This document shows, one piece after another, positions 464 to 49,327 of a DNA stretch of 64,000 bases; positions within the stretch are counted from its first letter, which is position 1; every line of letters begins with the position of its first letter. The position numbers were made by a program, and so were the translations under genes. Origin of the DNA: Diplonema papillatum (Eukaryota; Euglenozoa; Diplonemea; Diplonemida; Diplonemidae); contig JAPJBO010000444.1 of assembly GCA_030068145.1 (NCBI GenBank), positions 1 to 64,000 of the forward strand, in the 5' to 3' direction. The notes under the pieces were generated by a model that worked only from the letters and a program-made list of their open reading frames with translations, did not search any database and was not told the DNA's origin.

Positions 464-1520
464 TTAGATTGGATCCCACCGCCAACCCCCCAACATGCCA
501 GAGGAAGCAAACACCAGCAATTTCATGCTGTTCGTGCAGTGTACAAGCTGGGTAGTGACCCTGCATGGGGACGCGATGCCTAGCCTCACCATTTCCTCAG
601 CATGACTCTGCTGCAGGTGACTACGACGCTCCCCACAGGAACGGCTCGCTGGCCGATCACGCACAGGAAAAAACGTGGCCTTCCAGACCGAATCGAATCT
701 GGCCCGCACGTCGGGCTTCATTCTCTCCAGAAGCGGTCCCGTGTCCATGACGGGCACTGCTGCCACATGGAGCGGAGCTTCTCTCTCGGTCGGAGACACG
801 GGAAGGCGGGTGCTGTGCGCGCGCCTGGTGATACTATGGCGTCCCCAGGTACGTGGGAGGTATGGCTCCGGGGGAATCGATTGCTTGGTTGCTTGCGAAG
901 TATTGGTAAAAGAAGCGCTCTGGTGACACGAGGGAGAATAAGGCTGTGACGCCACAAAACTTGATCCCCCAACAGGCTCGGCCGGAATTCCATTTTCGGG
1001 CAGGCTGCCCGCCACTTCGTAGTCGCCGAGTGCAGATGGTAGCGGAGGGAAAGCCGGGGGGGCACCCACAGACACGGGCTATCCTGCGGCACAAACATTC
1101 CCGGGAGTAGGCTGTCGCCAGATGAGGGGAACCCCCGGACACCAGCTGGCGTCACAAATGGAGCAACCACACAAGTTGCGGAATTCCACAACGCGGGTCC
1201 GTGAAAACCAAAAGGGTCAAGCCCTTCGAACAGAGAAAAATAACCAGCCTCCCCCGGCTGCAACGAACTGCCGTATCGCTCGTCCGGGGCGTTGCCGGGA
1301 CTTCGGGTTGCCGGGACCACGGGCTTGGTTGGTTGAGGAGGAGCAGGCACCGACTCCGGGCCCAGTGCGCGATCCCGCTTGCGGCGGCGTCGCACTGCGG
1401 GGTTGATGCGCCTCTTCCTGCGGGCCACCGGGCTCTCAGACGACTCCGGCCACCGGCGCTCAACCCAGACCTTCGCAACCGCCCTCAGCAGGGTCGGAGC
1501 TCTCCAGCTTCATCACCATG
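464..1520 (-). CDS. Unidentified repeat-associated open frames, minus strand
   Basis: Two overlapping frames read leftward. One, from about 1520 to 718, begins without a clear ATG and has a basic N-terminal stretch (RRKRRINPAVRRRRKR) followed by a Pro/Gly/Ser-rich body. The other, 1075-464, is Pro/Ser-rich and contains the motif LLERMKPDVRARFDSVWK. I recognise no domain. Just upstream on the same strand (1500-1985) lies a repeat that recurs at 57541-57990, so the frames probably belong to a repeated element rather than a host gene. Composition alone keeps the frames open, so they may not be genes at all. Confidence 0.25.
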
Positions 1521-1985
1521 CAGAGCTCCTCCTGACGGGGGTTCAGTAGTATGTGTCGTCTGCCGAAGCAGCCGGAGACAGCAGGCGCAGGGGGCAGGTC
1601 TTGCTCTACAATTTTCTTCTTCAAGGAGACCCGCCCCCGGCAATCCCGACTGTCCAATCACTGTCGAGAAAGGTTTGCGCCCTATAGTGATGAGGTGGTT
1701 GACCAGGCCCCCACGAAGCCTTATACACAACACGGCTACAACACGAGGATGCAGCCCTGCTTAGGTGTGCACTCAGCCATCACAGGGCCTCAGATCTCGC
1801 TACTTGACCTGACACAGCTGCCACCCAGAAGGCCGCAGCAGTAACCTTCGCAATGAAGGCACGCGCGGCTGAGTGTATGTAGGCGATCCATACAACAGCT
1901 GCATCAGACGCAGCTTGATCCGAGAGCTCGCTAGGGGAGGTGACGCTGCTCACCTGCCAGTCTCACAACTGACTGCTGCGAGGCG
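1500..1985 (-). repeat. Dispersed repeat, copy 1
   Basis: Read on the minus strand it begins near GCAGTCAGTTGTGAGACTGG and continues through AGGTGAGCAGCGTCACC and the stretch coding for a conserved GGGCCTGGTCAACCACCTC. It aligns along most of its length with 57541-57930 on the plus strand, with several short indels. A fragment with AGGTGAGCAGCGACACCTCCCC recurs at 35961. The type of element is not clear. Confidence 0.6.
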
Positions 1986-2284
1986 AGGTGAAAATATTCT
2001 TATTATTTTTTCCCGTCAACAACTTGCTCAATCTCACATTTTTCTGATGTGTTATGATGACTAGCGTTCAGGCTGGTGTTTTTTGATATTGTTTGCTGCG
2101 TGATGCCCCGCTTCTTGTTCTACCTCTTACCTTAACCATACTTCAACGTCTCTGTGTTTGTTGTTTACCCCCAACTGAAATGAAAACCAATGTTGAAGGT
2201 GCCGGCCATTTCCCCCCTTTGTCTTGACTTCAGCCATACTTCAACTCTCTTAATGCCGTCTGTGCCCCTTGCTTTCTCAAAGTT

Positions 2285-2475
2285 GCAGCAAAGCCACACC
2301 ACAAGCCCTGAAGTCACGTCGGCAAGGTCACACCACGATCTGTCAAAGCCGCTCCGGAAAAGCCTTGTCTTCCGGCCAAGTAGTGCCACCAACGTCCCAG
2401 GCCGCACGGCCAAGTGTTGCACAGCCAAGTCCGTAGTGGCGCTATTTTGTTGCCCGCCGCACGTAGGGAAGGGTC
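2285..2475 (+). repeat. Dispersed repeat shared with 32985-33150
   Basis: The stretch around GGTCACACCACGATCTG and AAGTGTTGCACAGCCAAGTCC reappears in reverse complement at 32985-33150, inside the second hAT-type element. The pogo-like element starts only 13 bp downstream. No coding function is visible between 1990 and 2487. Confidence 0.65.
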
Positions 2476-2487
2476 TTTTTTTACATA

Positions 2488-3551
2488 CCGTCCCGCTCTT
2501 AGTTTATGAATTTCTAATTTATGAATACGGCCAAAATTAAATAATTATTTATAAATTAGAAATTCACTAAACAGGACCCCACAAATTAAAATCATGGCTT
2601 CTGTCCCTGAGCTCTTCAGGGCTGTTGATGAAAGGGCGCTGGACGTCAGCGTTGTCGAACTTGGAGTAAGCCGGCTACTGAACGAACGGTCCTTTCGGCA
2701 GATGAAATTCGGAAGCTGACCTGGAGAAAACGGTGGGGTAGCACCATGGGGAAAATTACCCTACAAGCGCCATGTCAAGTACCAGTGCCTTGCTCAAGAT
2801 ATTGACCGCCTGAACCGTGAATCCATCGTGTACTCATGGGCCGCCTCTGGTGTGCACCGAGCACTCGGTCTTCAGCAACCCGTGGACTCAAAAGGAGCCC
2901 CCATCACTGTCGTGTTTGACAAGTACAAAGCCCTCTACGACGAGGAGAAAAACTGGGACAAGGATCTTGTCGAGACTGTTGAGGAGGAAGGCAATTCTGA
3001 CATCACCTTGCCAATCTCAAGCCAAGAGATGGCCCCAGCGGCAGTGCCCGCGACACGTTCAACGCAGCCTGCTGCAAAGCCTCCAGCCGGACCAGGGCGC
3101 CCTCCGTCGAAGGCGAAACCCCCTCCGAAGAATCAACCAACACTGAACTCTTTCTTCGCGAAGAAACGAACCCTCGAAGCGTGTGCTGAAGGCGAGCCTG
3201 AAGCGCAGAGGGTTAAGGACGAGTGTACTGGCAAGCCTTTCCCCCCTTTTCCCGCTAACGTTATCTCGGCCGTACTCTTCACCAACGTTTTTGCCCTGCA
3301 GCTAGCGAGTCTTTCACCATTTTTCTTTTACGTTTTCGGCCTGACAACGTACCGTTCTGTCTGTACCGTACCGTCTGTACCGTACCGTGTACTGTACCGT
3401 CTGCAGTACCTCAGTTTCAAAATGTCGGGACGAAATTAATTAATTTAAGCCCAAAATCTTCGGGCCGATGAAAAAATAGTTATTCATAAATTAAAACCCC
3501 CGCTAATTAAGAGCGCGCGAATAAAGAGCCTATAAATTAAGAGCGGGACGG
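2488..3551 (+). mobile_element. Pogo-like (Tc1/mariner-type) DNA transposon, internally deleted
   Basis: Perfect 14-bp terminal inverted repeats CCGTCCCGCTCTTA (2488-2501 and, inverted, 3538-3551) are flanked by TA on both sides (2486-2487, 3552-3553), the target duplication of the Tc1/mariner/pogo superfamily. Subterminal sequence is A/T-rich, with repeated TTTCTAATTTATGAAT near the left end and related TAAATTA motifs at the right end. The single open frame (2594-3439) lacks a DDE/D catalytic core but keeps a PCNA-binding motif, as known for the C-terminus of pogo transposase. At 1,064 bp the element is about half the usual pogo length. I infer a non-autonomous deletion derivative. Confidence 0.75.
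2594..3439 (+). pseudogene. Relic transposon protein with a PCNA-interacting (PIP) box
   Basis: ATG at 2594 opens a frame beginning MASVPELFRAVDERALD. One in-frame TGA at 2717 interrupts it, and the same frame then continues to a stop at 3437-3439. The downstream part has WAASGVHRALGLQQPVD, an acidic segment, a Pro/Lys-rich linker (PPSKAKPPPKNQ), and at 3134-3157 the motif QPTLNSFF followed by AKKR. That fits the PIP-box consensus QxxLxxFF plus basic residues. Pogo transposase of Drosophila is known to bind PCNA through such a box near its C-terminus. No DDE/D core is seen, so this cannot be an active transposase. The TGA could be a true break or a short spliced region. Identification as pogo-derived rests on the TA/TIR structure plus the PIP box. 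Confidence 0.55.
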
Positions 3552-3554
3552 TAA

Positions 3555-4335
3555 GCGCCAGCTTGGAAGGAAATGCTCGACGATGCTGCCAGACAAAGAA
3601 CCGAAGGATCCCAAGTGCTGTATCTACCGAACCACGTGTTGAACGGACGTGAGGTCATGCGGGTCTACCCCTACACGACAAATCACACAAACACGTCTTC
3701 TTGTTTTCTTGTTGCGTTAGTGGGGAGTCATTTGCATGCAAATGAGTACTACACTATGCAAGCTTTTTGGTATGTGACTCCAGAAGGGTCACTTTTGCCG
3801 CGCTTTCGTCGTGGTGCAACCCTTGTCGGTTGCAACTGTTCTTGGAAGTTACTGACTAGTTCATAATCCGAAAAGGAATCGGAATCTTCGCTTTCCCGTT
3901 TGCGCCGACAGGCACGCCGAGATGCGGAGGACGCGAGTAGCCGGGAAGAGCCGGCGGGAGGGCGCGATCGTTGTGCGACCCGTGGAGGGCGCAGTGGTTG
4001 AGCCAAGTCCGACTTCCGTCAGAAACAGAAGCATCAGAGCCCGTGTCAGGTCTGCCATCGAAGAGGGCCGGGCCGGGCGGGGCTGGGTGGGCGCGGTGTG
4101 TTCGGGCCGGCGAGGCCAGTGCCGTCGTCGTCGAGATCGGCGCGTCGTCGTCCTCGTGCGCGCAGCGCGGCGGCGGGTGAGGCCGTGGGGTGCATGACAC
4201 AAACAACAGGTCAAAGTCCTGAGTAGAAAACAACACACAGTGGTGGAGGCGAAGAACAAATCAAATTGTGTTTGTATTGTATTTGCCCCTCTACCTCTAT
4301 ACTTCCTCCCTTCCATTCGGAGTCAAAGCAGCTGC
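3555..4335. repeat. Composite of dispersed repeats
   Basis: The segments AAATGCTCGACGATGCTGCC and ACCACGTGTTGAACGGACG (3570-3690) recur at 54705-54840 in the ABCG intron and, inverted, at 40030-40090. The palindromic ATTTGCATGCAAAT (3730) recurs at 56335. The stretch 4180-4330 with CCCTTCCATTCGGAGTC matches 54840-54970 in part. A GC-rich block at 3900-4200 keeps frames open on both strands (for example an Arg-rich minus-strand frame), but no domain is recognisable and I do not call it a gene. Confidence 0.55.
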
Positions 4336-4344
4336 GTCGAGTTT

Positions 4345-4425
4345 TTCCCCCGAACTTTGCGCGTCCACATGTGGACCGGACGTATTTTCTCTGAGACCGA
4401 AAACGGAGCGTAAGCCCTGCCTCTG
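4345..4425 (+). repeat. Short dispersed repeat with CCACATGTGG palindrome
   Basis: GTCCACATGTGGAC followed by CGTATTTTCTCTGAGACCG and AACGGAGCGTAAGCCCTGC matches, inverted, 32893-32975. The same AGCGTAAGCCCT end also closes the CACATGTGG iteron unit at 34930. These appear to be terminal pieces of one repeat family. Confidence 0.6.
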
Positions 4426-4439
4426 GTGGCCAAAACACT

Positions 4440-4478
4440 ATTCTCGTCTAAACTCGTATGATGAGTTTAGACGAGAAT
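4440..4478. repeat. Perfect hairpin
   Basis: Arms ATTCTCGTCTAAACTC (4440-4455) and its exact reverse complement (4463-4478) enclose a 7-base loop. It lies directly downstream of the CCACATGTGG repeat. Function unknown. Confidence 0.7.
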
Positions 4479-4552
4479 CTGATACGAGAATACGACTCGT
4501 ACACGACTCGTATGCACTGAATGCCTATAGGGGGGCAAGACGGCGCTTTCCC

Positions 4553-4745
4553 GTGAGGCCGCCAGCCAGAGCGCCCCCGGCTGTGTCAACCGACGCCGTC
4601 ACCCACGGTGGCGCGTCCGGCGGAACGGCCTAAGGCCCACCTCAGAAGTTGCGAGGTTGGCCTGATCGTCCGGAAACTTCTCGGAGAGATGATCCCTGCA
4701 CTCACACTCGGCTCTCTCTCTCTCTCTGCAATATCTCTGCAATAT
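4553..4745 (+). repeat. Dispersed repeat ending in a (TC)n tract, copy 1
   Basis: A GC-rich head (CCAGAGCGCCCCCGGCTG) is followed by the line GGAGAGATGATCCCTGCACTC and then CTCTCTCTCTCT. Other copies are at 26440-26625, 42820-42875 (tail only) and 55667-55860. All end in the same CT microsatellite, a layout reminiscent of a SINE with a simple-repeat tail. No RNA polymerase III boxes were identified with confidence. Confidence 0.55.
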
Positions 4746-5112
4746 GGTCCCGTGCTAAAAAAGGCCGTCTTTTTAAGTAGTAAAAGCTGCAGCGATCACT
4801 TAACACATGGTGGTCAATTGTAGCGGGTAACGGTCGGTAACCGTCGCATCACATACAAATATTTGCTTCAGAATGCTCGCAGTGTATCTGGCAAACTTAT
4901 CCAACATAAGAGCAAGAATGGCAGAAGTAGGGCAAACACGAAATCATCGGTATTTGCCAATATTCGACCAAACAGCGACCCCGCGCACTTCACTTCTACT
5001 AACTACTACCACCACATTTTCAACTAAACTTCGAAAATGCTCAGTGGACACCTCCGAGTACGGTGGTGTTTGAGGTGGGGTGGGGGTTAGAAGCCCTAAA
5101 GTGTGGGACTTG
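4746..5112. other. Upstream region of the helicase gene
   Basis: No gene is seen. The region is moderately A/T-rich, with a short ACCACCAC run near 5010. An in-frame TGA at 5071 precedes the helicase frame, so the start lies downstream of it or in an upstream exon spliced at about 5090 (GGGGTTAG). Confidence 0.4.
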
Positions 5113-8100
5113 ATGCAGATGAATGGGTCCTGTGTATCGCTAAAGGCTGGCGTGCGGGTACAACGAAGACTGATCGCAATGGGTACCTCTGGTGCTTCTG
5201 CTGGGTTCCTCATCGAATCGAAGACGGGACAAAAGGAACCCGGTTACGTTCCACTGGCACTTATCAACACGCGGGGTCCTAAAACAAAGGATACTTGGTC
5301 GAAGTGGGAGCAGCCTACAACGTTCGAACAGAACACATGGAAGCCGAAAATGTTGTTCACAAATTTCGACCACATTCGAAACAACCTCATTGACCCACGC
5401 TTTCCCAATGAGCAAATGGAATCCGTTCCATATTCAGCTTGGGATGCGCGTATGGGACACGGTTCACACACGCCTGTAGGTACTGCCCTCCTTTTGTTGT
5501 TGTGAGAACAGAACTAACCTTCTCCTCGACTATCTGCGAAGCAAGGGCCGGCGACCTCAAGAACTTAAGAGAAAACCTTACCACAGCAGAGGGTGGCAAA
5601 CTGCCACACTTTGAGAAATGGAAGGACACCACTGCGCGAAGCTGTTGAGCAAACCGCACCGAGATTCAAACTCTCGAACGAAGTAGCTTTCTATACGAGT
5701 ACCACATTCTCAGGTATCGAATGGACGGATCTCGAGGAGCGCGAACGATTCTACTACCACATGATCTTGTCCCCAGATCCCGAGATGGTCGGTCTACATC
5801 CGCACATTTGTTCAGTACTGAGAAACATTGGGATCAGCCGCTTGACGCGTGCACAAACAGAGGGCCTGTATTATTTGAATAGAGGCCGTGACCTCATGCT
5901 CGGTAGCCATCCGGGCTCGGGAAAGACATCCGCAGCCGTCTGGCATGTCTTGAATAAAGTCTTGAAAGAATATCCTAATGCGCCTTTTAGTACGCTGTGG
6001 ATTTGCCCACATGAGAATTTAGCACGGCAGACTCTCCGGTGGTTTGTGACTCTCGGCAAGCTTGTTGGCGTGCCGGATGAGCGGACATTTTGCTTGTGCA
6101 TCGACTCCAAAGACCTGAAAGACAATTTCGAAGAATGCATGGTCAATCGTCCGGCAGTGCTTATTGGGACACCGAACCGACTCGGGGACCTGCTCCACAC
6201 GCGAGACTCGCCTCTGTGGGGGATTGAAACAACTACACTGCAGCGAATAGTAGTTGATGAGGCAGACGAAGTTCTCCCATCGACATCAGACGATACCCTT
6301 GGCTCCGCTTTGATGTACAGTCTTTCGGTGCATGCTCGGAATAAGAGGAAGCACATTAAGGTCGGAGACGTTGCACAGCAGAAGATCTTTCTTACTTCAA
6401 CGCTCGACAACGAAGGGAAGTCGCATCTGATGAAATGGTTTCGAAGTCGGCAAGGATTCATTATCGAAAATCACTACGGTCGTACAATCGAAAAAGCGCA
6501 GGGATCTGTCAGCAAGCCGACTGACAAAAATACTGACGATGTCAGTGCACAGACCACAGATTTTAGAAGGCTGGAAGAAGATGGCCGCTATCGCGAGTTT
6601 GCACTTTACGGGGCAATGTCCCTGCAGAAAGATATTTCGCATGTTGCGGTGCTGGCCCCACCATCAACGGTTGCCAAGCGGTGGGCGTGCCTTGCAGCCG
6701 TAGTAAAGGCGGCTTTTGAGACTCAAAACGCAGAAGCGGAAAAGCTTGACCCTGCGGACCGAGTTTACTTCCGCGGCCTCATCGTTGTCCGGGATGGCAG
6801 CGAAGCCAAAGACGCTGCCCTCGAGTTGTACAAAGTTGGTATGCTAACATTTTGCGGTATTGCCAGCTCGCGGTGGTGCCTGCCTTGCTGCTACTTTATC
6901 GAGGAAGGGCCAGGGATATCGCAATAGGGCCCGGGTTCCAAGACGGATAAGAAGATTGCTGTGTGTGTGTCTAACATGAGCCTGCGAGCATTGAACCACG
7001 TCGATTGAGAGCAAGGACGTTGTCCGGAGACTAAGTCTTTGGAAGTCTTCTCTGTGCGCGCAAACCGTATTGGTATAAGAATATCAAACAAATTCAGGAT
7101 TCAAGGGAAAACTCGGCCGATTAGAAAACCCGACGGCTCTAGAGTCCTATGCCAACGGAAACCTACCGCTGCTTGTAACGACGGAAAAATTCGCTCGGGG
7201 AATGGACTTGCCATTCTTAACGCATGTGTTTATTGCGGTCCCCATAGCAAGCCCAGCGGCCTACATTCGCATGGCAGGTCGGGTTGGTCGCTGCGGACGG
7301 TCGGGGGCTTGTTTCGTTGTGTACACCCCTCACGAGGCTAAAATGCTGAAGGTAGTCGAGAGCCGTTTGAATATCAACATCGACCGTCACAGTGCGCGCT
7401 CCTTCTCTGAGAACCACTTTCTCGAACTCCCGCTTCCGTTGGCGACACTGCTGGGCGAAGGCGAGTCCCTGGAACATGCCATCCAAGAAAACTGTCCACC
7501 GAGCACAGCGGGTAGCTTGGACAGGGGTAGCCTTTCGCTTCTCAAGTCTTTTCTGATTGATGATCCAGCAGCGGTAAACACACTTTTGCCTGACGGCCGG
7601 GACCCGTACGAATTGACGACCCTCGACTCTTCGCGTAACGTGGTAGCAGCGGATGGCAGCCTGAAACCGCTTATTGATCCCCGCCTGTGGCCCGCTGGAG
7701 CTTCGGGTGGAACACTGTTGGCGACAGAAGAAAAAGTCGAGCTCGAAAAGCGCAACAGCCATGAATATTACGACGTTTACGCAGCCAGTAACTTTCACCA
7801 CACATCAAATCCCTTTGAGCAGCGACGCGCGCCGATGCCTTCCGGAAGGTGTGTATACTATTATAGTTTTCGACGATGGGCCGTTAGTACTTCCGTGGCT
7901 CGGCTATTTAGCTTGCTCGCGTTCTTCGGTTCGTCGTGTGGCCTGCTGTTCTTTGTTGAGTAGCAGTATCGCTGAACTTTTTTCAGGTCTTTCTGCGCGG
8001 TTGCCGCTTCCTCAGCAACAGGAACGTAAGTTGAAGGGTTTCAATTACTTGGCTCATTTGTGTGCAGCAAACTTCACTCACCGCACAACAGCATGCATCC

Positions 8101-19486: not shown

Positions 19487-19867
19487 GTAATCGCACCGCC
19501 CACCGCACCCCGTGCCACAGCAAACACCATGCTTTGCTTTGATTCGCTTTTACACCCCGCTTTCTAATTTATGAATTTCTAATTTATGGATTTCTAATTT
19601 ATGGAAATCGCCTAAAAAGATTAATTCGTCCATAAATTACAAATCCGTATTTAGCTGACGACAAATTATAGGACCAAAGCAACAAGTCACTGGCCATGCT
19701 ATGGACAGGAAAGGGCTCGGCGGAACAGTGCGGTGGTGGAAGGAGAAGAACACACAGCGACCGGTCAGTTCAATAACTATTGTCCAATCAGCTTCGAAGC
19801 CGTAAGTAAGCCCTGCCCACAATCCATCGTTCGCAAACTGGGACCAGCCAGAGGTACTTTTTTTTTA

Positions 19868-21497
19868 GGACAAAGTTCCTTATCCGGAGCCGAAGTTTTG
19901 GAATAAACCTTTGTATGGGCTCACTAGTTTCTAAAAGGGCCTTTGTATGGACAGCAGAGTTTTGCAAAATACCCTTGTATGGACACAAGGTTTGCAAAAT
20001 ACCCTTGTATGGACAGAAGATTCTGAATAAATACCCTTGTATGGACACACACATTCTCAAAAGGGACCTTGTATGGACAGACTTTTTTGGTCCCTTATAT
20101 GGACGGCAGATGTTCAAAAATTCCGTTGTATGGAGAACCTACCCTTATATGGACGCCGTACGTTCGAAAAGTCCCTTGTATGGACGACATACTTTTGAAA
20201 GGTCCCTTGTATGGACACCTGACTTTTGAAAAGTCCCTTGTATGGACACCTGACTTTTGGAAAGTCCCTTGTATGGACACCTGACTTTTGAAAAGACCCT
20301 TGTATGGACGACGTATTTTCGAATACCCTGGTGCACTATTGTGTCTGGAAGCCTGCTCTCCATTGCAAACTTGTGTGGACGACGTACTCGAATACCCCTG
20401 TGCACTATTGTGAGCTGCATTGCGTAAACTCTGTTGGCAAAACCGGGTCTTTGGCGTCTGAGACGAACGAGACGGACTCCGGGAATGCATCAGACAACGA
20501 AGACGAAGACGAAGATGAAGACGAAGACGAAGCTGTTGGGACTGCCCGGACACAACTTCTGTGTTGCCAGTGGTGGGTGCACTTTTTCCATCGGCCGACA
20601 GTTTTTTTGAACGGGTGCTAACGGTCTGTTACCTTCAGCGACGAAGCTCCGGCGTTCACAGAGAGCAACCCGTATTTTGCTGCCATCAGAGCAGTAGATC
20701 CGGACTCGCGTAGTCGGGTGTACACCAAGCGCGATGAAGAAGGCAGGCGGTTTACATTTTGTTTCCTGGCCTTCGGGGCCGCGATCCGTGCGACCGCCCA
20801 CGTGGTCCCACTGATAAGCATTGACGCCGCGCACATGGAAAGGGGGGGGGTGCTTTTCAGTGCTGTTGGCATCGACGCCAACCTCGGCACAATTCCCATT
20901 ACGCTTTGGGAACCACGGAAGATACAGAGTCATGGTCTCGATTCCTTCAAAATCTGAGCGAAATACACGCTGGCAGCAACTTTGGCCTCATTTCTGACAG
21001 GGACAAAGGACTCGAGGCTGCTGTGGAAGGGGTTCTCCCCAGGACACCGAACTTACTTTGCCGGGAACACATAAAGCGGAACGTGGTTTCTTCTCTGGAT
21101 TGTTCTGACACGGCATGATGTCGCTCTTTGATGCCTTTTCATACCCTTTCCACTCAGAATGTGAAGGCTCCAATTTCACCGCAGCATTGCTAATGTGTTC
21201 ATGGGTGAACCCCAACATCAGATCATTCCACGGGTCGACGTGCAGCAAGCAGGTTTCACTACACCGTGCAAGGGACTTTTCCTAATTCAGGTGTCCATAT
21301 AAGGGACCTGGAAAAAAGTTTGTCCATACAAGGGGCTATACAAAAATATCTCGTCCATACAAGGGACTTTTCCAAAGTCAGGTGTCCATACAAGGGACTT
21401 TTTCAAAGTCAGGTGTCCATACAAGGGAATTTCGAAAGTTTGCTGTCCATACAAGGGACTTTTTCAAAGTCAGGTGTCCATACAAGGGACTTTACCC
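19868..21497 (+). mobile_element. Mutator-like element (MULE) with inverted terminal arrays
   Basis: Ends GGACAAAGTTCCTTATCCGGA and, inverted, GGGTAAAGTCCCTTGTATGGA are flanked by TTTTTTTTA on both sides (19859-19867 and 21498-21506), a 9-bp duplication as expected for Mutator, though in a low-complexity T-run. About 13 copies of a 25-35-bp motif around CCCTTGTATGGAC fill 19900-20345. About seven inverted copies (GTCCATACAAGGG) fill 21285-21490. Between the arrays are an acidic exon and a MULE transposase domain. The element sits inside the TA-flanked element, so it is the younger insertion. Confidence 0.75.
20445..21118 (+). pseudogene. Mutator-like (MULE) transposase, relic
   Basis: An acidic stretch (SDNEDEDEDEDEDEAV, about 20490-20535) is followed by a likely intron of about 70 bp ending TTCAG at 20638. 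The next exon encodes RRFTFCFLAFGAAIRATAH, then the first catalytic-region motif SIDAAHMERGGVLFSAVG (Asp codon at 20823), and, in another frame, TTEDTESWSRFLQNLSE and ISDRDKGLEAAVEGVLP (second Asp codon at 20996) and CREHIKRN. This order matches the MULE domain (IDGTH, later SDR.KGL and C..H...N). The frame changes near 20906 (CGCTTTGGGAACC, consistent with one extra base) and ends early at 21118, so the third catalytic residue and the C-terminus are missing. Confidence 0.75.
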
Positions 21498-22213
21498 TTT
21501 TTTTTAACAAGAACATCCTCCTCTATCGGAAACGAGCATTCGCTTTTGTGTGACTGTTCAAAAATTTCCGCGCCTGCGGCGCAGGCATATTTAGCATCTG
21601 TCTCTGCGGTGGGTGGTCGGGGCACCCCCTAGTAGCTAGTTCCTGTCCCCAAAAAGGTCGAGTGCCTGTCCAAGAGCCTGGACAGCAAATATTGATTCTG
21701 GGCCCCCAAAAATAAAATAATTCGTCCAAATAAATTGCATGGCCATAAAATAGAATTCCGCAAATTAAAGGACCATAAATTACAGGTCGGGGTGTATTTG
21801 CTCGAGCGAATAACAAGCAAATAAAGGCAAACAAAAGCAAATAAAAGCGAATAATAGACAAAGAAAGGCAAATCTAATGTGCTTTTCTCAAAATAAAGTT
21901 GTTTTGCTCATTGTTTGCTTTGCTTACATACTGTGTACACGTTAGATCCGGCTGCGAAACCGCAGGTCTACCGTGTTTGCCACCTCTTCACCGAAGAATT
22001 TCACTCTAAAAATGGTGACCCGGACTGGAGACTATAAACCCCCGGATCTCTAAGTGAACTTGCACTCTCAAAAAACACGTGTCCTGTCCATCGCCCAATC
22101 CCCCAATCCCCCAATCCCCTATTCCACAGACACCGAAGCTGCCTCCGGGCACGCCCCGTTCTACCAAGTCATCCGCCAGCACTTCCGCCTTCGCAGACCC
22201 CGAGTCAGCAGTC

Positions 22214-25200: not shown

Positions 25201-26104
25201 GCCGCCGCCGCGCCTGACGGCACCGCCGGTCGACTCTTCGGTGCCGCTGTACCTCACCGCGAACGAGGCGCGCACGCCGAACCCGACGCCGTCGTGGCCG
25301 TACGCGAGGCAAGCGCCGGACCCCAGGAGCTCGGGCTTGTACGCCTCCACCAGAACCGCGTCGCCCCCCTTTTCACAGGGCGGGGTCGAGGAGCACGCAG
25401 TGGGGGGAGGCAGGGCGTCCTCTCGCAAGAGGAGGCCGCACGAGCTCGAAGGGGCAGACTGGAACCAGAAGACCAACGTCGTCTACGTGTCGACGGTCAG
25501 CCTCTCCGCAACCAACGGCGAGCCGTTCCACGAGCGCGGCGCGGAGACCGCCACTTCGCGGCTCGTTGCGAACAGCCCGTCCGACCACCATTCCGCGGGG
25601 CATGCCGTTCCGAAGGCGGCCTACCGGAACCGCAACCCGCGGGCGCCGCCTGTTTGGAATAGCGCAGACGCGTACCGGCCGACCGCGGCGTCCCAGCAGT
25701 CGACGCGGCTTTCACCGCCGCGCCGGGCGACCCCTGCCGCCGCGCCCGTGTCCCCTCCGGCGAGCCCGGTGACCGTGGAGCGGCCGGTCGACTACGCGAC
25801 GATCCCGGTTGCCATCCGGGACTGCTACGTCATGCGGGACGCCGCGGCGGGCCCCATCGGCGCCCACCTGACGGGCGTCAGCGTCGAACGCGTCACGGAG
25901 GGCACGCCCGCGCACAAAGCTGGGCTGCGGGCCGGGATGATCGTCCACGCCGTCAACGGACGCCCCGTGCTTCGCTTCGAAGACGTCCAGGTACTCCTCC
26001 CTTACTTGACAATCTTCGTGTATCAGCAGGACGCAGCCTTCGCTCAACGGAAGCTGAAGTTTCCCTTCAAGGCGTTACACTCCAGTCCGTATTTAATCAA
26101 GTAA
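22214..26104 (+). CDS. Large disordered protein with C-terminal PDZ domain and RRHS repeats
   Basis: The frame is open from about 22079, with the first ATG at 22214 and an alternative exon start at the acceptor TTCCACAG (to 22129). About 1,296 residues, very GC-rich. The N-terminal third is Pro/Ser/Ala-rich. Residues coded at 23070-23275 (HVTIQSVSGVRCVASV ... GDIQLLDGDGRPVAVSY) look like a beta-grasp, ubiquitin-like fold, which is an inference. Five copies of RxERRHSRNS lie at 24318-24640; RRxS is a basophilic-kinase motif. A PDZ domain at about 25795-25990 (AHLTGVSVERVTEGTPAHKAG, MIVHAVNGRPVL) has lost its final strands. A donor CAG|GTACTC at 25989/25990 could splice to an unseen exon. If not spliced, the last residues and stop come from a MITE. 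PDZ proteins bind C-terminal peptides as scaffolds; the partner is unknown. Confidence 0.75.
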   Translation: MIVPPQSTFGMKTPTAAAAPPGPPQPQSGPKQQPPRQSPVKQQPAAAFGLKGSGGAPRASMGKSGGLVKGGGSSIDLGRSSTTRELLAKMARDRQARQSSAGSERQPDRRSEAIGIFPLDASRASIQSFKSVASTPRSLPSQQAGGRPPPAKTPVKEQPPAAFYRQPSAATSLASTGQHSPRAAQIFASLPELAGLRRRIVDSHGAVARWAQKCLAVTVRANDHAAEASGLRAALLAVDPACEATIDSLLEHCALGAGEGGPRYVSVSTLLRVFSEGRAEPADKAKHVTIQSVSGVRCVASVSPGESEADVLAQVSSRLGTRQSGDIQLLDGDGRPVAVSYAALRDSGVYFVQTKPPSTAGRSASNSQASAPESDPPANAAQPPSEGPDTPGEPAGRVASDHARGGVLAGGGQNSEAVPSVDTVAQEPGAAGGEGAPPHGEGGGGVDRLDRSAGGGAARREGKRAGPQIGSSSTVDFDITDPSVDVVSPVLSTSGEHLSFSSPANGPATIVSPMTEALGDERTGDKEEPTPPTTVQHAPAGGPGRKPSSEAGAGSRRARPGGRSRSDSGASSSGAGRRRFGRQGSAHSAAARTGSGRAGRKANSDASGSTADTATAGPPTPRSLPVVRRLRSGQWQDQQQPGEPPAAEAYPAPGFEAGNSVSMTATYDRQRLPRELRVSVEDLRADVTTVPDTESEEPSESGTRKERRHSRNSVPEAGSTRKERRHSRNSAAAAQAQVREEEQPEAGNPRDERRHSRNSVPQMLDKEQSESGSTRDERRHSRNSVPQMLDREQSEAGSTRNERRYSTNIVQAAQQMHDRDAEEPRDEPIAISSLLNLSDVDKRDDKTDRQPYQSVTSQPRQPPKPVQLLHQSANSVNFDPHPTIPTATKPTTAVFREPSFRSSPFPSRQAAVLVDRRSGYRQRQPAQNGLDDVSSPALGLQPFVHALLDRQTAEKNYGLEWPGGGGPGSFGCAFRDNLQIERSKRGLPAADDSHLEPPPRLTAPPVDSSVPLYLTANEARTPNPTPSWPYARQAPDPRSSGLYASTRTASPPFSQGGVEEHAVGGGRASSRKRRPHELEGADWNQKTNVVYVSTVSLSATNGEPFHERGAETATSRLVANSPSDHHSAGHAVPKAAYRNRNPRAPPVWNSADAYRPTAASQQSTRLSPPRRATPAAAPVSPPASPVTVERPVDYATIPVAIRDCYVMRDAAAGPIGAHLTGVSVERVTEGTPAHKAGLRAGMIVHAVNGRPVLRFEDVQVLLPYLTIFVYQQDAAFAQRKLKFPFKALHSSPYLIK
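24318..24645 (+). repeat. Coding tandem repeat, five RRHS units
   Basis: Units of 54-84 bp encode RKERRHSRNSVPEAG, RKERRHSRNSAAAA, RDERRHSRNSVPQML (twice) and the diverged RNERRYSTNIVQ. Each of the first four has an RRxS kinase consensus and three have SRNSVP, close to a 14-3-3 type site. Confidence 0.8.
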
Positions 26105-26360
26105 TATCTTGTGGAATTGTATGTGATGAGTTATTTCGTGAAGGAATTCATTGTTTTTCAGACGGGCGCTTCCGGGGGATTTGTTTATTTATTTTTTGCT
26201 GGAGTCTGCTGCCTGACACCTGCTAGCGCAACGAGGTCGGGGGGACGGGCATGAAGCTGAATTTTGCGAATTTCTGTTGCGTGAAGGAATTAATTATTTT
26301 TTTTTCCACGGATTTGGCGGTCTTCACGAATTGGAAATTGATTACTTACGGACTGGAGTG
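26078..26360. mobile_element. MITE with CACTCCAGTCCGTA ends, copy 1
   Basis: Perfect 14-bp inverted ends CACTCCAGTCCGTA are flanked by TA (26076-26077 and 26361-26362). At 283 bp it has no coding capacity. A/T-rich subterminal sequence and the TA duplication suggest a Tc1/mariner or pogo-derived MITE. It overlaps the end of the PDZ protein frame and supplies its stop codon. A second copy is at 31150-35594. Confidence 0.85.
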
Positions 26361-26439
26361 TAACCGCCGCCGTAGGCCGCGCAGTCGCGAGGAAGAAGAG
26401 GGCCCGCAGCCCGTACAAGGCGGCGATCCCCCGTGACGA

Positions 26440-31111: not shown

Positions 31112-32559
31112 GTCTGCCTTATATCTTAGATTGGATTACTTTTGTATTACACTCCAGTCCGCAATTAATCAATTTCCAATTCGTGAAGACCGCCAAATCC
31201 AGGGGTGTATCCACATTTGGACTGCCAGTCCAAATTTGGAAAGGCCGCCGAGAAGAAAATAAATAAGAAATGGGATTACACCACCGCCAAGCCCCGGCAG
31301 AGTGGCCAATGCAATCTGAGGCCTCTCAGGGCCCAGCCTTGTCGTGAAGATACGTCGTGTCGCGCTGTATTGAGCCTATTTCCTGGGCTGCAGGTCTTTC
31401 GACGAATTCGGCGAATACAATGTACCGAATGGGTCGGCGGGTGTGAGGCAACTTCTGTTCGCGCTGCCCTTGCGACAGGGTGGTGGAGGAGGGAGCAAGC
31501 TAGCTTGGATGTCTGTGCATGATGGACAATACCGTTTCTTCGGGCCTGGAAACTTGGTGTACCATACCGTTTTTTTTTCCGGCTCGCCATGCGAGCCGAA
31601 AACTTGATTATTAGTATTTGAAGAACACTGAGTGGAGATGACCACTACACTACATTAGAGGGCCGCACATGTTACGACCATTAGTTAGAGTGCGTAGTGT
31701 GTAACTCCGTTCTTCTACTGTACTCAGAGACAAGATGTTGTGGTACTGGGGGTTCCAGTCGGCAAATCCTGGCTGTTGCTACACCGCGACACTAGAGGTT
31801 GCGGCCGGAGAGGTGGCAGAGACCCGTGCAACACTGGCAGGTGAGCCCCCTAAGTGCAGAAACCGCTGAAAAACAGTGAAAACGCAAAAAGCCGTTAGCC
31901 TACGGGCTTCGGTGGTATCTTGTCGGTTTGAGGCCCCTTCCGTAGCTTGGAAAACAGAAAGAGAAGTAAGCATCTCCATCGGATAGAACGAGGACAGAAG
32001 TTCCCACGCTCAAACCGCTCGGCTGTGCCATCGGAACAGAAGTCGGCAACAAGCGGTTCGGACGGGCGGGTTCCCAGCCCATCAAGTACAACCGGTTTTC
32101 CCTCGCCTAGAAGGTGCTGTCGGATGGCTTAAGATGGCCTGAGCAGACTGCTACCTTTGGTTCCGCATCCTTTCAAACGGTGGCTGACCAAGCCGCTGTT
32201 TGAGCTCTGCAGGGGTTTCGATGCACTCCAAAATGTGGGCACCAACAACCCCGGCAGCTGGGAGGAATGGCTACCGAGCATGGGTGCGTGGCGTTCGTGG
32301 ACGCGCAACTGCGCGCAAACAAGCGTCACGCAACTAGCAGAGACAGGTCACCACTCGTTCTGCAGTGGAGTTAGCATTATCTCAATGTGTCGGGAGCAGT
32401 AGTTGTCGACTGAAAAGTAAGCACGTGCCACACATCGATGCAGACGATGAATGCCGCAAATGCAGGCATTCGAGGCCGTTCTACGAGCAGGCAAGATGAC
32501 TAGCGAAAGAGCGTGCCGTACCTCAGGCAGGTCGCTCGAAAACGGCGACCCGAAATGGA

Positions 32560-41490: not shown

Positions 41491-42362
41491 GTTTCTTCAG
41501 GTTGCCAGTCCGACTGTTACAAGAACAGTCTCTGTTTCACCCTTTCTTTTTTTTACATCTTCTTCTGAGCTTCGGCAGTGATTCATCCAGATCAGGATCC
41601 GGGATGCACCTGACTTCATTTCCAGCCAACCAAAAAAGTACAACGAGCGAATCAAAAGGGGGGTAAACTTAGTTTTGGAAGAACTTCGCCGGGGGAGGGG
41701 GCGAGAGATGAAGCGTGCGCAAAGCATGTCCCTGAAGTGAAGGGATTTGTCTGTGCCCTTGCATTTGGGTATACGTGGGTGTGCCTTCCTGCACACTCGC
41801 AAGGTTTCAAGGCTCAAAACGACGTGGCTCGTTGCCTTTTCCCTCCGCCAAGGGCACAGTGGAATGCAGCCTGGTCGCAAGTCGGGGAGAATGGTGCTGC
41901 TCGACCGACAACCTTGCTTCTTCGGTCTGCAGTGAAGCAACTCCAGTCCTCCTATCTGTGTTTTCTCAGCCCGCCGTCTCCTATCCAGAGGTTCTTCCCA
42001 CAACTTTAGATAACCTGGGGCCCTTCCTTTTTCAAGCAGGGACGACCGTCGTCGTGGAGACATATACGGTGGTGCCCAGCCTCAGAACCTGGAGTTGAAG
42101 CTGGAGAGAAAGCGGGTGCCACACCCTCTTTTCGGGTGTGGACTTACACGCGTTTTGGTTGTAGCACGCCCTCTTTATCTCCAGCTTCCTCACCGTGTAT
42201 CTTTTCTCACAACAAAACCATCCATCTCTTTCTTTTCACTACGAGCCCGCCCCGTCGGTCGAGAGTCCGAACTTCATTTCTGGGTGCAACATCAGGCAGG
42301 ATCCGCCTGGGGTCGCTTCGCCAGGTGAAAAGTGACCACCCCTCCTCTTTTTATGTTTGGCG

Positions 42363-42725
42363 AGCCAAAGTGTACCGGGGAAAGCCTGCTATCAGCTTTT
42401 GACGGTAGTGTAGTGGACTACCGTGGCTGTAGCGGGTAACGGAGAATTAGGGTTCGATTCCGGAGAGGGAGCCTGCGAAACGGTCACCACATCTAAGGAC
42501 GGCAGCAGGTACGCAAATTGCCCAAGCCCAATAGCAACACTGCTGAGGCAACGAAGAGAAATAGCCTCGACACGTACTTAGTACGTTAGAAGCAATGGAT
42601 GATATCTAAACCTGCCAATGAACACAATTGGTGGACAAGTCTGGTGCTGCACGGGTGCAAAGCTTGGCGGTTTTGGCGGCACCGGGCGGGCCGAGACGAT
42701 TGCCGATTTCCCAAACCACAAAGAA
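42363..42725 (-). repeat. R1 repeat remnant enclosing an rRNA fragment
   Basis: The left flank GTACCGGGGAAAGCCTGCTA and the right flank GATTGCCGATTTCCCAAACC both match the R1 repeat in inverted orientation. What lies between them is not R1 but 18S rRNA sequence. Confidence 0.4.
42391..42572 (+). pseudogene. 18S rRNA fragment
   Basis: The block TTTTGACGGTAGTGTAGTGG, GGGTAACGGAGAATTAGGGT, TCGATTCCGGAGAGGGAGCC and GCAGCAGGTACGCAAATTGC is the conserved 5' domain of small-subunit rRNA (about positions 370-530 of a typical 18S). Identity is high to about 42525 and then decays. Several positions that are nearly invariant differ (for example GAAACGGTCACCACATC for GAAACGGCTACCACATC), and no further rRNA follows, so it is a fragment and not a gene. 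Confidence 0.85.
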
Positions 42726-43462: not shown

Positions 43463-44340
43463 TGAACGCTAAAAGGCAGGACCGAGCTGCGAGTTCGGTG
43501 CGCTTGCAGAGTGACGGCCTTGCACAGGGTGAAGACAAGTCAAAGAAGGTCAATGTTTGCTCACAGCTAGAACCGTTCAGCTCTACCCTCGATCCCACCC
43601 ATGTGGCATCGTCTCAAGTCTACATGCACGGCTGGACATAGACCCGGCCATGCGTACAGCACCTTTAGCTTCCGTCCAAAATGGGCCGCCCTCGGTAAGT
43701 TAACAGTAATAAATACGTGAATAGAAGTCATGACCTTCCGTGTCGCCTGCGTGCGTGCATGCGCAGATGTGCCACAATGCCTTCCCCATGAGACCCTGGT
43801 GCAGTATTCCCCATCGCGAAGTCTTAGCACTCTTGACTTGGTCCGAGTGATTCCCCCGAAGTCTTTCTGCGCCTCGGGAAACCCCCCTCAGTCCGTGAAG
43901 TCTTAAGATGGGCAAGCCAACCTTCATAGACTACATACATATCGTTACGGCATCGAGGTCGCACCGTCCCAACTCTGGCTCAAGCTTTGCATGCTGCGAT
44001 TCGCTGCACCCCCTCATTTTTGCATTTCGTTTCTGTGCAACATTTTCTTCGAAGAAGACTTGGTGCTAGCATCATTCACGCATGAGAGGCAGTGTTCTGT
44101 CTAAGCATTAAACTCGGATCCCCCCCTCTCCCGAACAATCTTCATCTTCTTCTTTCGGGCGCAACAAGCCGCCCCCGCTCTCCCCAAAAGACGCGTCTTA
44201 GGTTCTTCTTCTTTTTTTGAGCGAAACCATTTTAACCTTCCTGTTCCACTTCGTTTGGGTTCCCCTTACTCTGAATCTGACCGCTAACCCCTGGAATGCC
44301 GCGCCGCTTGTTCCACTTGTTTGTGCACACGGTGGACCGG

Positions 44341-44520
44341 TCATGGTCATGACCGCATGTTTGACCGGTCAGTTTTTGACCGGTCATCTGAGAAAGTTAT
44401 GCGGTCATTGACCGCATACCTTGCGGTCAATGACCGCACCCTTGCGGTCATTGACCGCACCCTTGCGGTCAATGACCGCAACATTGCGGTCAATGACCGC
44501 AAGGTTGCGGTCATTGAACG
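44341..44520. repeat. Left palindrome array of the 44328-48676 unit
   Basis: GACCGGTCA-type and TGCGGTCAATGACCGCA-type palindromes, about eight in 180 bp, are spaced by short A/T or CCCT linkers. Confidence 0.85.
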
Positions 44521-47500
44521 TATCCTGTGGTGAGCCACAAGGTTTCCTGCCTTTTTGGGTTGAAAATCACCCGGTCTCGGTCTCTCTCTTTTCTGGTAAA
44601 CGTGCTTCTGCGTTTCGGGGGTCAGAAACACTGGTTGGAGAAAAGGTATGTTGGGTGTCACATACAGGGCTTTTTGGTGGGATTTCTGAGGTCACAATCA
44701 CACGGTGTGCTCCAGCACCGGGTGAACTGTGCAGTCCATTTTGCGGGTGTCACACCTGCACCTGTGTAAAGTTTAGATGGCTTCGAAGTTGTAGACGTTG
44801 GAGTGCCGCGGTCTTGACCAGGACTCGCCTGGCCGCTCGCGCTCCGATCTGTGCCAAGCAGTCAGGGCGCGAGCGGAGGCATCAAATTTATGGCCTCATA
44901 CGTCAAGAACCTTGTGCGCCCTGGACGCCCGCATACTCGAGGTTCTAAGCAGCGCCAGAAACTCGCCCAGAATCTGGGGAGCAGCGCCGTGGTCATGGAC
45001 GGCATCGAAGATCGTCCTGAACTCCTTCACGCCCGGCGGCTTCGCCCGCCGTGGGTCCGGCGACTCCTCCTGAGGACAGCCATCATCCTACTCACGCTCT
45101 TTCATTGAGCGGGTCGTCGAGGACACACGCCGCCGCTTTGTTCTCCGCCAGCACGGACGCCATGATGTTTAGGGGCACCCCATAGGCCCATTGTCGCCCA
45201 TCAGCAACAGGCGACCACCGCCACCGTAGGGCCCGACGCCCATGCCTCGACACTTGGGCCTGTTGTCCGTGGCTCTCGGAGCAGGGAGCCCCGGGGCTGG
45301 TCGGTGCCCGGGGCTCAGCCCCGGAGCGCTCCAGGAGCCCGACAGGGACGGGCATAGAACACACTTTCTACTGTTTTCCAGGTAGATCCGTTCTCAGCCG
45401 CGAGCGAGGCGACTCCTCGACTCGTCTGTGGGAGAGCGGCAGAAGAGGATAAAGGCCTCCCAGAGCTTGTATTTCCCAGCACCTTTCTTTCTTGTCCTGC
45501 TCATCCGCACCCAGTTCACTTTGGTCGTCAACGCAAACCCATCAACGCTCTCGTCCTCCGAATCTTCATCGACGGGTGAAGATCAGAGCCAAAGGGGACA
45601 GCTTTATCGGTCTCAGGGGTGAACACCGACGACCCCCTGCAGATGGCGCAGTACATGGCGCAGCTTGGGCGGCGGCCATCACTCAGCTGCCACCCGGACG
45701 GTGTTAACGAGTTTTCAGATTTTTCTGGACTCGGTGCCGTCGCCGCCGAAGAACCTGGCAGACCAGATCACTGCCTGGGGAGCTTGGCCGACGGCCGCCG
45801 CCCAGGCTTTGATGTGGCAAGGGGCGGTGCGGACTCGTTGCCGCTCCTCTGTCCGCATCGTGCTGCGGCACCTCGATGGGATCTCGGGCCCGAACCTCCT
45901 GCTTTTCCCGGGCCACGAGTACCAACAACTGCTCGGGACCTGAAGTCCTATTTCTTCCAATTCCCAGTAGGACGGCCGACGCCCGGGAGCCCAACGGGCT
46001 ACGAGATGAGGCCAATTTTCCGCGGCGGCGAGGAGACGATGGGGGTCTTTGAGACGCAGCTGAAGGCGAGGCGTGGGGGATGGACCTTTTCCCGACGTAC
46101 AGAAGAGAGAGGGCGGAGCGTGCAGCGAGATGGACGGCCTTCGACGACACCACGGAGAAGAAGAAGGGCAAGAAGTCGGCCGTTGTCGGAGGAGACCCGT
46201 GGCTCGTACCGGAAGGGATTTCCCGACACGAAAAGTGGGGTGAGCGGAAATGTGTGCCGAGCACCGGATGACGCAGTGCACCACATGTAAGACGACAACG
46301 GAATGCTGTCGCAACCATCACCACCGATGTCTCGACCATGAGATGCCGACGTGCGACAGCTGCAAGAAACACGCCGACCTGAGGAGTAGGAGACGCGGGC
46401 ACTGCTGCAGGAAAGGGCACCACCGGGCGGCCGTGGCGAGAGGAGAAGAATCAACGACGAAGAAGAGGAAAGCGGAGCCGGAGGGCCCCGCGTCAGCGCC
46501 GAGACAGGCGAAGCGTGAGAGCGTGGTGCTCGTTCTGCCGGAAGCAGCGGAAGGCGAGCGAGGACCCGCAACATCGACATCGACTTCAGCAGCGAAGGTC
46601 GGGAAGACGGCGCTTTCTTCGGGCTTCGGACCAGGAGACCCGACGGGGGCGTGGCTCTGTATTGGTGGCGCCTGGGCAGGTCGTTTTCTATGATTGCGCA
46701 GGACTCTGATTTTGTTATCACGGAGGTTGCCGGGGACGACAGGATAGTCTGGTACGACGACTGGGCCCTCGTCGTTGCCTGTCCGGGCGCGCTTCGCGCT
46801 GTGCGCAACCGGGTCCTGCAGCGTGCCCGCATGATGGTCAAGGACGAGTAGTCTGTCCTCGAGCAAGGACGAGAAGTCTGTCCTCGAGCCCAGCTCGACG
46901 CCGGTTGTCCTGGGAGTCGAGTTCGACTTCGCAGCGAAGAGGTACCGGCTGAAGCAAGGGTGGGTGCAGAAGCCGCACCTCCTCTTTTGCTCGGTCGATT
47001 TGACGCAAATGACTCTGCGCGGCGTCTGGAAGTCGTCGAGACCGCAATTTGAGCGTGGATGGTATGGGGCACACTGCACTGCAGGGTGAGCCCAGTGCTT
47101 GCGGATGGTGACCCGAGTCGCTAGTCCGCGTGAGGGACGATATCGTTTCGTTCCTGCGGGGGTGAGCCGGCGTCTATCGGACAACCGGTGGGTCGGCTTC
47201 GACTCGAAGCTGCACCCTCGTGGAGGCGTGGTCCGATGCCGGCACGCAGGGACTGGTGGGCTCTCACAGTTGCACTCAGGGAGTTGATGCACCACGAAAG
47301 TCGAAAAGAGATTTGGGATAGCATGCAAGAATCTGTAGCGATAATCTGCATCGCCGGTTCGCACGTGATGTGTCATGTTTTCGCCTCTTTAGCCCCCTTG
47401 GGCGATGGCCGCGCTTCGATGGGCGCTCTTCTACGCCGTTTTGTTGTCGGCTCCGACGCAGAGTTCGTCCGCTTCTTCGCTCGCGTCAGTGCCGTCTTCT

Positions 47501-48523
47501 TGACCCTCACCGCTGGCTTTAATGTTGATGTTGCGGGTCTCTGATGTTGCTTGTCTTCTGCTGCTTCAGGTAGCATTCCGGGTGTGCTCTTTGTCGCTTT
47601 GACGATACGTGGCGAGCAACGTTTTTCCCTCATGTGGAAACCGAGTCAGTAATCGGTTCCCTCAATCCGCTGACCATGATTGGCGCTGATGCTCGATTCG
47701 ATTGTACTTACGGTGAGGCAGTTTCTCACTGGCGTTGTGGTGGATGGAAGGTGACCTCGCCCAAGCTCGTTTCCCGGGTTAAGGCAGTCACTCAACATTC
47801 CCTTGCGCTAGTGATATCAGTTACAAAGACGTGTTCTTACTTTTCCCTTTCTTCTGGGCAGTTCTCGTCAGACAATACGAAGAGCAGAAGAAACTCCATG
47901 GCGATGTGGGCCCCGTAGAGATGTCCCGCAGCACATCTTCTTTGCCGAGCTGACGACGGCAAAGTTTGCGACTCCGCTGTCGACAAGTAGAATCTTTGTC
48001 GACAACTTGCCTTTGTTTGTGCGCTCGCAGCCTTTGTTCGCACTTTCTCTCGTTGAAGAGATATTGTGCTATTTGCAAAGGCTGCCTTCCTGTTGAAATC
48101 ATCTGTTCTCATAGTAGTGGACGCCACACTAATTTTTGTGTACGCCGGTACACAACTGTTTGCGAGACTGGAGGCACTCGTTGCATCGAAGAGTTTGCAA
48201 AGGTCGACAGTCAACCTTGGGTTTTACATCGTCTGTTACGATGGAAAGGTGCGTGGCGTCCCGTGTCTTTCTTCGCACGGGCTCACCGTCGCATCGTTTG
48301 AGAGAGCTACACCACCAGGCTCGTTGCCAATCAAAAAACTGTCAGCTGCCCGTGAAAGTGTCTCTCTCCTCTGCGAGGTCGGTTTGAGACGCTTTCACGG
48401 GTAAAAACGGTGAGCCACTTACACGGGGGGGGGTACGTATAGTTGTAAGTGCGTACTTCGAGAATTAGGCCTTGCGTGGGTACACTTTGCTGCCTATTTT
48501 ACCTTGCAAACTTTCATAAGTAC

Positions 48524-48676
48524 CGGTTATTGACCGCAATGTTGCGGTCAATGACCGCATGGGTGCGGTCAATGACCAGTACCCTACCGGTCAATGACCG
48601 CAAGGTACCGGTCAACATTATTGCGGTCAGCGTGGTGCGGTCATTGACCGCACCAGCCCTTGACCGGTCCACCGTG
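48524..48676. repeat. Right palindrome array of the 44328-48676 unit
   Basis: ATTGACCGCAATGTTGCGGTCAA-like and TACCGGTCAATGACCGCAAG-like palindromes, about seven in 150 bp, end in the terminal repeat. Confidence 0.85.
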
Positions 48677-48685
48677 CATGCATCT

Positions 48686-49150: not shown

Positions 49151-49189
49151 CTGCCCCGAAGTGCAAGAAGGTGACAATGAGTGCGCCGC

Positions 49190-49327
49190 TCTGGAGCAGG
49201 ATCCTCCGTAACGCGCAAGGCACAAGGAGGAGGTCTCTGGAGCAGGATCCTCCGTAACGCGCAAGGCACAAGGAGGAGGTCTCTGGAGCAGGATCCTCCG
49301 TAACGCGCAAGGCACAAGGAGGAGGTA
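49190..49327. repeat. Tandem repeat, 46 bp x 3, nearly identical
   Basis: Units start TCTGGAGCAGGATCCTCCGT at 49190, 49236 and 49282. Near identity means recent expansion. Open frames across it are by-products. Confidence 0.9.

Follow-up and report, generated by a model that had tools for sequence, protein, structure and literature searches.

A 4349-bp unit at positions 44328-48676 of a 64,000-nt stretch of Diplonema papillatum DNA (hereafter the window; contig JAPJBO010000444.1, G000:C444 in our searches) is one of many copies of a young DNA transposon, and the reverse transcriptase (RT) remains inside it are passenger DNA, not its engine. The family to which the unit belongs is, with a probability of about 0.85, a non-autonomous terminal inverted repeat (TIR, class II) transposon family of D. 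papillatum that carries pieces of retroelements as cargo and is most likely CACTA-like (CMCT group).

Ends and copies of the transposon family

The unit is bounded by a perfect 16-bp TIR (44328-44343, plus strand; 48661-48676, minus strand), with CAC at its left end and GTG at its right end. Arrays of palindromes lie inside both ends, six palindromes at 44400-44522 (plus strand) and a right array at 48520-48652 (plus strand), and both arrays are built from one half-site, CGGTCA. GGTCA/TGACC half-sites number 18 in the first 260 bp and 12 in the last 219 bp, with nine in the central 3870 bp. The palindrome TGCGGTCAWTGACCGCA, with up to two mismatches, was found nine times in the window, every time within the unit, compared with a mean of 0.01 and a maximum of one in 100 dinucleotide shuffles of the window. 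The left-array palindromes start 22, 21, 21, 21 and 21 bp apart, and a spacing of 21-22 bp corresponds to about two turns of B-DNA. Both the perfect TIR and the palindrome arrays had been pointed out in a preliminary description of this DNA, and both are real.

The distribution of these sequences was determined in an assembly of 271 Mb in 2910 contigs. The 16-bp end gave 219 exact matches and the 17-mer TGCGGTCAWTGACCGCA gave 678, while the reversed control of each gave none. Two inner types of the end were distinguished, with 101 and 104 exact matches, and a search for TA-flanked ends with altered inner bases gave two matches. The double-palindrome pattern had no match in viral contigs, a collection from which records of the D. 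papillatum genome may be excluded.

Forty loci were retrieved from the first listed matches; 30 of them and the window copy gave 31 paired copies, 22 of which measure 4.1-4.5 kb. Identity among 20 aligned copies was 97.5-99.8% (median 98.5%, counted over aligned bases without gaps). When 200 of the 205 typed ends were paired, 52 pairs were obtained, 37 of them spaced 4.0-4.5 kb, and 96 ends stayed unpaired. Among the matches listed, an RT match was enclosed by 41 of the 52 pairs and not by the other 11. Since two of these 11 (L010 and L043) carry the full RT piece, one (L016) a partial RT piece and one (C1214) a piece of a long interspersed nuclear element (LINE), the tally of 41 is an undercount. 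In locus L016 (1278-1281) two family units stand end to end with TA alone between them, an arrangement left by insertion beside an older copy or into the dinucleotide at its border. The interval C379:60700-83737 was considered as a single insertion and rejected, its flanks being TG and TA.

Target duplication and empty sites

The same dinucleotide was present at both borders in 27 of the 31 paired copies (16 TA, 5 CA, 4 TG, 1 AA and 1 CT), compared with a mean of 12.4 and a maximum of 20 matches in 2000 shuffled border pairings, and no copy had borders matching over 3 bp. The window copy is flanked by CA at 44326-44327 and again at 48677-48678, so that the earlier statement that there is no clear target duplication does not hold.

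Empty sites were accepted when at least 20 query bases were aligned on each side of the junction at more than 80% identity, and L016 was left out of this analysis. Nine matches were obtained for five copies (L011, L017, L019, L036 and L046), with the flanks joined at another locus and the dinucleotide present once. The family has ends that are fixed in many copies, a duplication of fixed length (2 bp) and empty sites, three features that mark a TIR (class II) transposon, a fourth being a transposase that acts on the ends. A segmental duplication in which the unit spread together with its surroundings would predict common flanks, and L017, L023, L041 and L047 do have flank sequence in common. 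Most flanks differ, however, each of the 27 copies has its own dinucleotide duplication, empty sites exist, and the genome is reported to be haploid with few variants (PMC10161547). We therefore give segmental duplication hardly any credence.

The role of RT in the movement of these ends was assessed from copies that lack it. In locus L019, only 237 bp long, both ends and a TA duplication are present and an empty site exists, and all seven interior segments looked for were absent, indicating that the ends do not need RT. L032 (2067 bp, TA duplication) is without the tyrosine recombinase (YR), LINE, RT and RNase H (RH) pieces described below. The RT piece was absent from four of the 31 paired copies (L019, L032, L033 and L035) and partial in one. 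Whether RT always lies inside such ends had been asked in the preliminary description, and the answer is no.

Origin of the RT piece

The RT peptide of the unit had 151 genome matches, of which 150 were listed (408 candidates, 150 scored). Among those listed, 94 were 85-100% identical and were taken as the unit's own type, and 56 were at 77%, 30 of these lying in frames of 1013-1015 amino acids (aa). The source type is represented by the YR retrotransposon L049 (G000:C9:28200-34200, about 1337-5440, minus strand), in which gag-like, YR and RT/RH frames overlap. The gag-like frame has 309 aa and another 350 aa, and the RT frame matches RVT_1 at E 3.7e-8. The 350-aa frame had no Pfam match and is called YR because it aligned, at 28%, to a frame of locus L030 that itself matches Phage_integrase (9.1e-9). 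Residues R294, H316 and Y325 are common to the two frames, and the histidine of the HxxR box, a tyrosine-recombinase motif, is a lysine in L049. A single-sequence search with the YR frame found no solved structure, and a profile search returned three at E 1.2, which are not recombinases. In protein databases the L049 RT matched five proteins, all of D. papillatum (78-99%), and the recombinase frame matched two further D. papillatum proteins (95 and 98%).

Split direct repeats are also present in L049, on its minus strand (A1, 5323-5440; B1, 1517-1599; A2, 1395-1519; B2, 1337-1419). An A1...B1-A2-B2 order of split direct repeats around gag, YR and RT/RH is the plan of VIPER and TATE elements (PMC6681497, PMC12278014). 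L049 resembles these elements, and also Ngaro/PAT, both in its repeats and in the succession of overlapping gag-like, YR and RT/RH frames; it differs in coming from a diplonemid, and the likeness is one of layout. The word "diplonem" does not occur in PMC6681497. L030, a copy of the transposon described here, carries as an insert a second, distant YR retrotransposon (about 3026-6172, minus strand), which contains the Phage_integrase frame and an RT frame whose RVT_1 match, at 4e-5, is below the cut-off.

The unit keeps only coding pieces of the L049-type retrotransposon, with deletions, and has none of its ends: a search for the split repeats of L049 within 44328-48676 gave nothing beyond chance matches of 12-15 bases. 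From left to right on the plus strand, the pieces are the gag/YR overlap (45399-45441, 91% to L049), internally deleted YR pieces without the C-terminal catalytic part (45616-45934, three blocks, 88-100%), the start of RT (45937-45981, 91%), a further RT piece with a WYDD motif and broken frames (46612-47252, 79% over 697 aligned columns) and RH (47895-48011, 75%). They are flanked by a left interior (44527-45398) and a right interior (48017-48517) with no known coding source, present in full or in part in 30 and 28 of the 31 paired copies, respectively; the frames tried in the left interior gave no convincing Pfam match.

Origin of the Cys/His-rich segment

The RT-like frame and the Cys/His-rich frame noticed earlier are both inside the unit, but the latter comes from a LINE unrelated to the RT source. 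At least 150 genome matches to the Cys/His segment were listed (2769 candidates, 150 scored). Among these, 72 were at 92-100% and were taken as the unit's own type, and the other 78, at 88-89%, lie in frames, up to 1845 aa long, that are outside this family. One of the 88-89% matches supplied L050, which encodes 1133 aa, is open at both ends and matches RVT_1 at 7.8e-21. The LINE piece (45994-46613, plus strand) corresponds to L050 in two blocks (84% and 93%) and interrupts RT at a point that lies between positions 3248 and 3252 of the source; one border has a filler of 11 bases and the other a few shared bases. It holds neither end of its open reading frame (ORF), and because it stops before the ORF end, ordinary target-primed insertion would not have left it in its present form.

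An inverted duplicate inside the unit, left unexplained in the preliminary description, is real (52 nt, 77%). It is the tail of the LINE piece matched by a related, LINE-like tail in reverse orientation (47373-47645, minus strand), in which 17 of 31 residues are like those of the LINE piece; at the DNA level, 47469-47573 is 72% identical to L050 on the opposite strand.

State of the cargo at the time of spread

The presence of 11 cargo joins was scored in the 40 loci, and each was found in 25-31 of them. All 11 were missing in seven loci (L018, L019, L023, L025, L027, L028 and L032), and other loci missed single joins; L043, turned round by the aligner, was left out of the join table and of the selection analysis. 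Since the joins are common to so many loci, the family spread with its cargo already broken, and we infer that the unit in its present form cannot have been moved by its own RT. A comparison of silent and changing differences in four cargo frames gave ratios of 0.53-1.34, with 10-26 changes per frame, showing no clear constraint either way. The earlier view of the element as an old, broken fossil is right for the interior, which is broken, but not for its age, as the copies are close and share the same broken joins.

These results bear on the proposal that the unit is a dead DIRS-type retrotransposon with inverted ends, once moved by its own RT, the arrays being part of those ends. As in DIRS-1, an RT derived from a YR retrotransposon lies between inverted repeats, and the YR origin of the RT source does give a hint of kinship. 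The layout, on the other hand, is that of a DNA transposon with RT as cargo: the ends move without RT (L019), the family borders have a 2-bp duplication, the split direct repeats of L049 left only chance matches in the unit, an unrelated LINE piece lies within RT, and the broken joins are shared among loci. DIRS-1 is not known to make a target duplication. VIPER and TATE are reported to make none (PMC12278014). The DIRS proposal is accordingly most improbable, and the evidence supports the other reading offered in the preliminary description, a retroelement nested in a DNA transposon. RT between inverted repeats need not denote a DIRS element.

Route of entry of the cargo

The retroelement pieces would have entered before the burst of copies, either through nested insertion with later deletion and patching or through template switching in the course of gap repair, and both may have happened. 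Template switching in place of nested insertion and deletion concerns the route of the cargo only, and we regard it as quite possible, at somewhat less than even odds. It would account for a LINE piece that has neither ORF end and sits at a single break in RT with filler and shared bases, and template switching with gap filling has been proposed for Pack-TIR elements (PMC8277862). A unit of 14.5 kb (G000:C828:40336-54812) points the other way. It has both family end types, with TA on both sides, and encloses two of the 77% RT matches in 1015-aa frames, suggesting that whole YR retrotransposons probably insert between such ends; among the matches listed, none of the present cargo falls inside it. 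This unit could be an autonomous or intermediate form of the family.

The family resembles Pack-TIR/Pack-TYPE elements in having TIR ends around pieces sourced elsewhere in the genome, in many copies (PMC8277862). It differs from them in its cargo, a patchwork drawn from two retroelements and not from host genes.

Superfamily and mobilization

Judged by its ends and by the length of its duplication, the family probably belongs to the CACTA-like superfamily (CMCT group). The CMCT group is described as having CA..TG termini (CAC..GTG in EnSpm) and duplications of 2-5 bp (PMC12730594), and the termini and duplication of the family fall within this description. A DDE transposase that has C(2)C and H(3-4)H motifs is a further mark of the group. 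In CACTA elements short repeats form arrays in both orientations (PMC8978399), and the family shares with EnSpm/CACTA the CAC...GTG ends, a short duplication and dense short repeats in two orientations inside the ends. It differs in that its repeats are perfect palindromes in register and that no transposase was recognized in the unit.

Several observations weigh against this assignment or against the TIR reading as a whole. The target duplications of plant CACTA elements are 3 bp long (PMC8978399), whereas that of the family is 2 bp, so that it falls outside CACTA in the narrow sense, none of the 31 copies matching over 3 bp. Pfam searches with five interior frames of the unit returned nothing at E 1 or below, and 10 further frames, mostly from its outer parts, matched only at E 0.048 or worse, below the cut-off; in these 15 frames, the unit would seem to hold no recognizable transposase. 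The 40 loci are a non-random sample. Four of the 31 pairs (L015, L031, L041 and L043) have no matching duplication; L031 (C231) and L043 (C178) have two ends of one type, which suggests rearrangement. The empty sites are paralogous and in repeated DNA, several with gaps in C/G runs near the junction, and the flanks of the window copy match only themselves, without an empty site in the genome. A site lacking the unit, called for earlier as a check, is therefore available in paralogous form for five copies and not for the window copy.

The superfamily could also be another one, the non-autonomous transposon being served by a TA-preferring Harbinger-like transposase or by one of some other or undescribed lineage. 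TA duplications occur in the Harbinger lineage PHISTA, and 2-bp duplications, with other termini, in PlavakaA (PMC12730594), and no transposase was seen in the unit frames. The CAC...GTG ends with their two-orientation arrays fit EnSpm/CACTA, however, and 11 of the 27 duplications are CA, TG, AA or CT, which sets the family apart from ESTA and other strictly TA-inserting lineages. We hold this alternative, which touches the superfamily only, to be tenable but doubtful. A separate diplonemid CACTA-like lineage that reads one-face arrays of 17-bp palindromes and repeatedly takes up retroelement sequence, with the C828 unit as its possible autonomous or intermediate form, is a more speculative and rather unlikely extension of the CACTA-like reading.

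In the mechanism that we propose, a transposase from another element would bind the CGGTCA half-sites of the end arrays, where a spacing of some two helical turns between palindromes would place its dimers on one face of the DNA. The transposase would then pair the ends and, by cut-and-paste, transfer the unit to a target dinucleotide that is TA in most cases. An autonomous partner was sought among the longer copies and none was accepted, the surplus of L030 being the YR retrotransposon and the inserts of L029 and L031 having, by eye, repeat-like frames. An inner frame of L032 was considered as RNase H and is not claimed (no Pfam match; BLASTP E 1.2 or worse). A transposase-like frame near a TIR end in L028 was also rejected, as it is part of a different, piggyBac-like unit that has borders of its own. 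That unit (L028:2488-4556) has perfect 20-bp inverted ends adjoining TTAA on both sides, and its frame gave a match, at 3.1e-6, to the end of the DDE_Tnp_1_7 profile.

Relation to previous work

In the literature, taken by titles and abstract openings, no diplonemid TIR family with these ends was found. The D. papillatum genome paper gives a haploid genome of about 280 Mb and, in the excerpted text, lists only MULE, Helitron and TATE among DNA-transposon-like ORFs (PMC10161547). No DNA transposons were reported in a survey of 57 trypanosomatid genomes (PMC12278014), Merlin elements have been reported in Bodo saltans, Perkinsela and Euglena gracilis (PMC8101967), and transposons like miniature inverted-repeat transposable elements (MITEs) have been suggested as a source of diplonemid noncanonical introns (PMC12621601). 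To these the present results add a diplonemid DNA transposon family with defined borders, duplication and empty sites, which has spread the debris of two retroelement classes. They also reveal in Diplonema a VIPER/TATE-like retrotransposon with many open frames.

Neighbouring features of the window

A fragment of a eukaryotic small-subunit rRNA gene (42204-42685, E 9.5e-39) lies about 1.6 kb to the left of the transposon, and a 46-bp unit repeated three times in tandem without differences (49189-49326) lies to its right. Another unit, at 19551-21796, has inverted ends (TACACCCCGC.../...GGGGTGTA) and contains inverted arrays of a 31-bp unit at 19926-20309 and 21269-21493. A 22-bp inverted repeat, TACCGTCCCGCTCTTAGTTTAT, has its arms about 1 kb apart at 2486-3553 and is perhaps another TIR unit. 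A 291-bp MITE-like unit with ends TTACACTCCAGTCCG... is found at 26074-26364, and part of a second copy lies in the opposite direction at 31147-31200.

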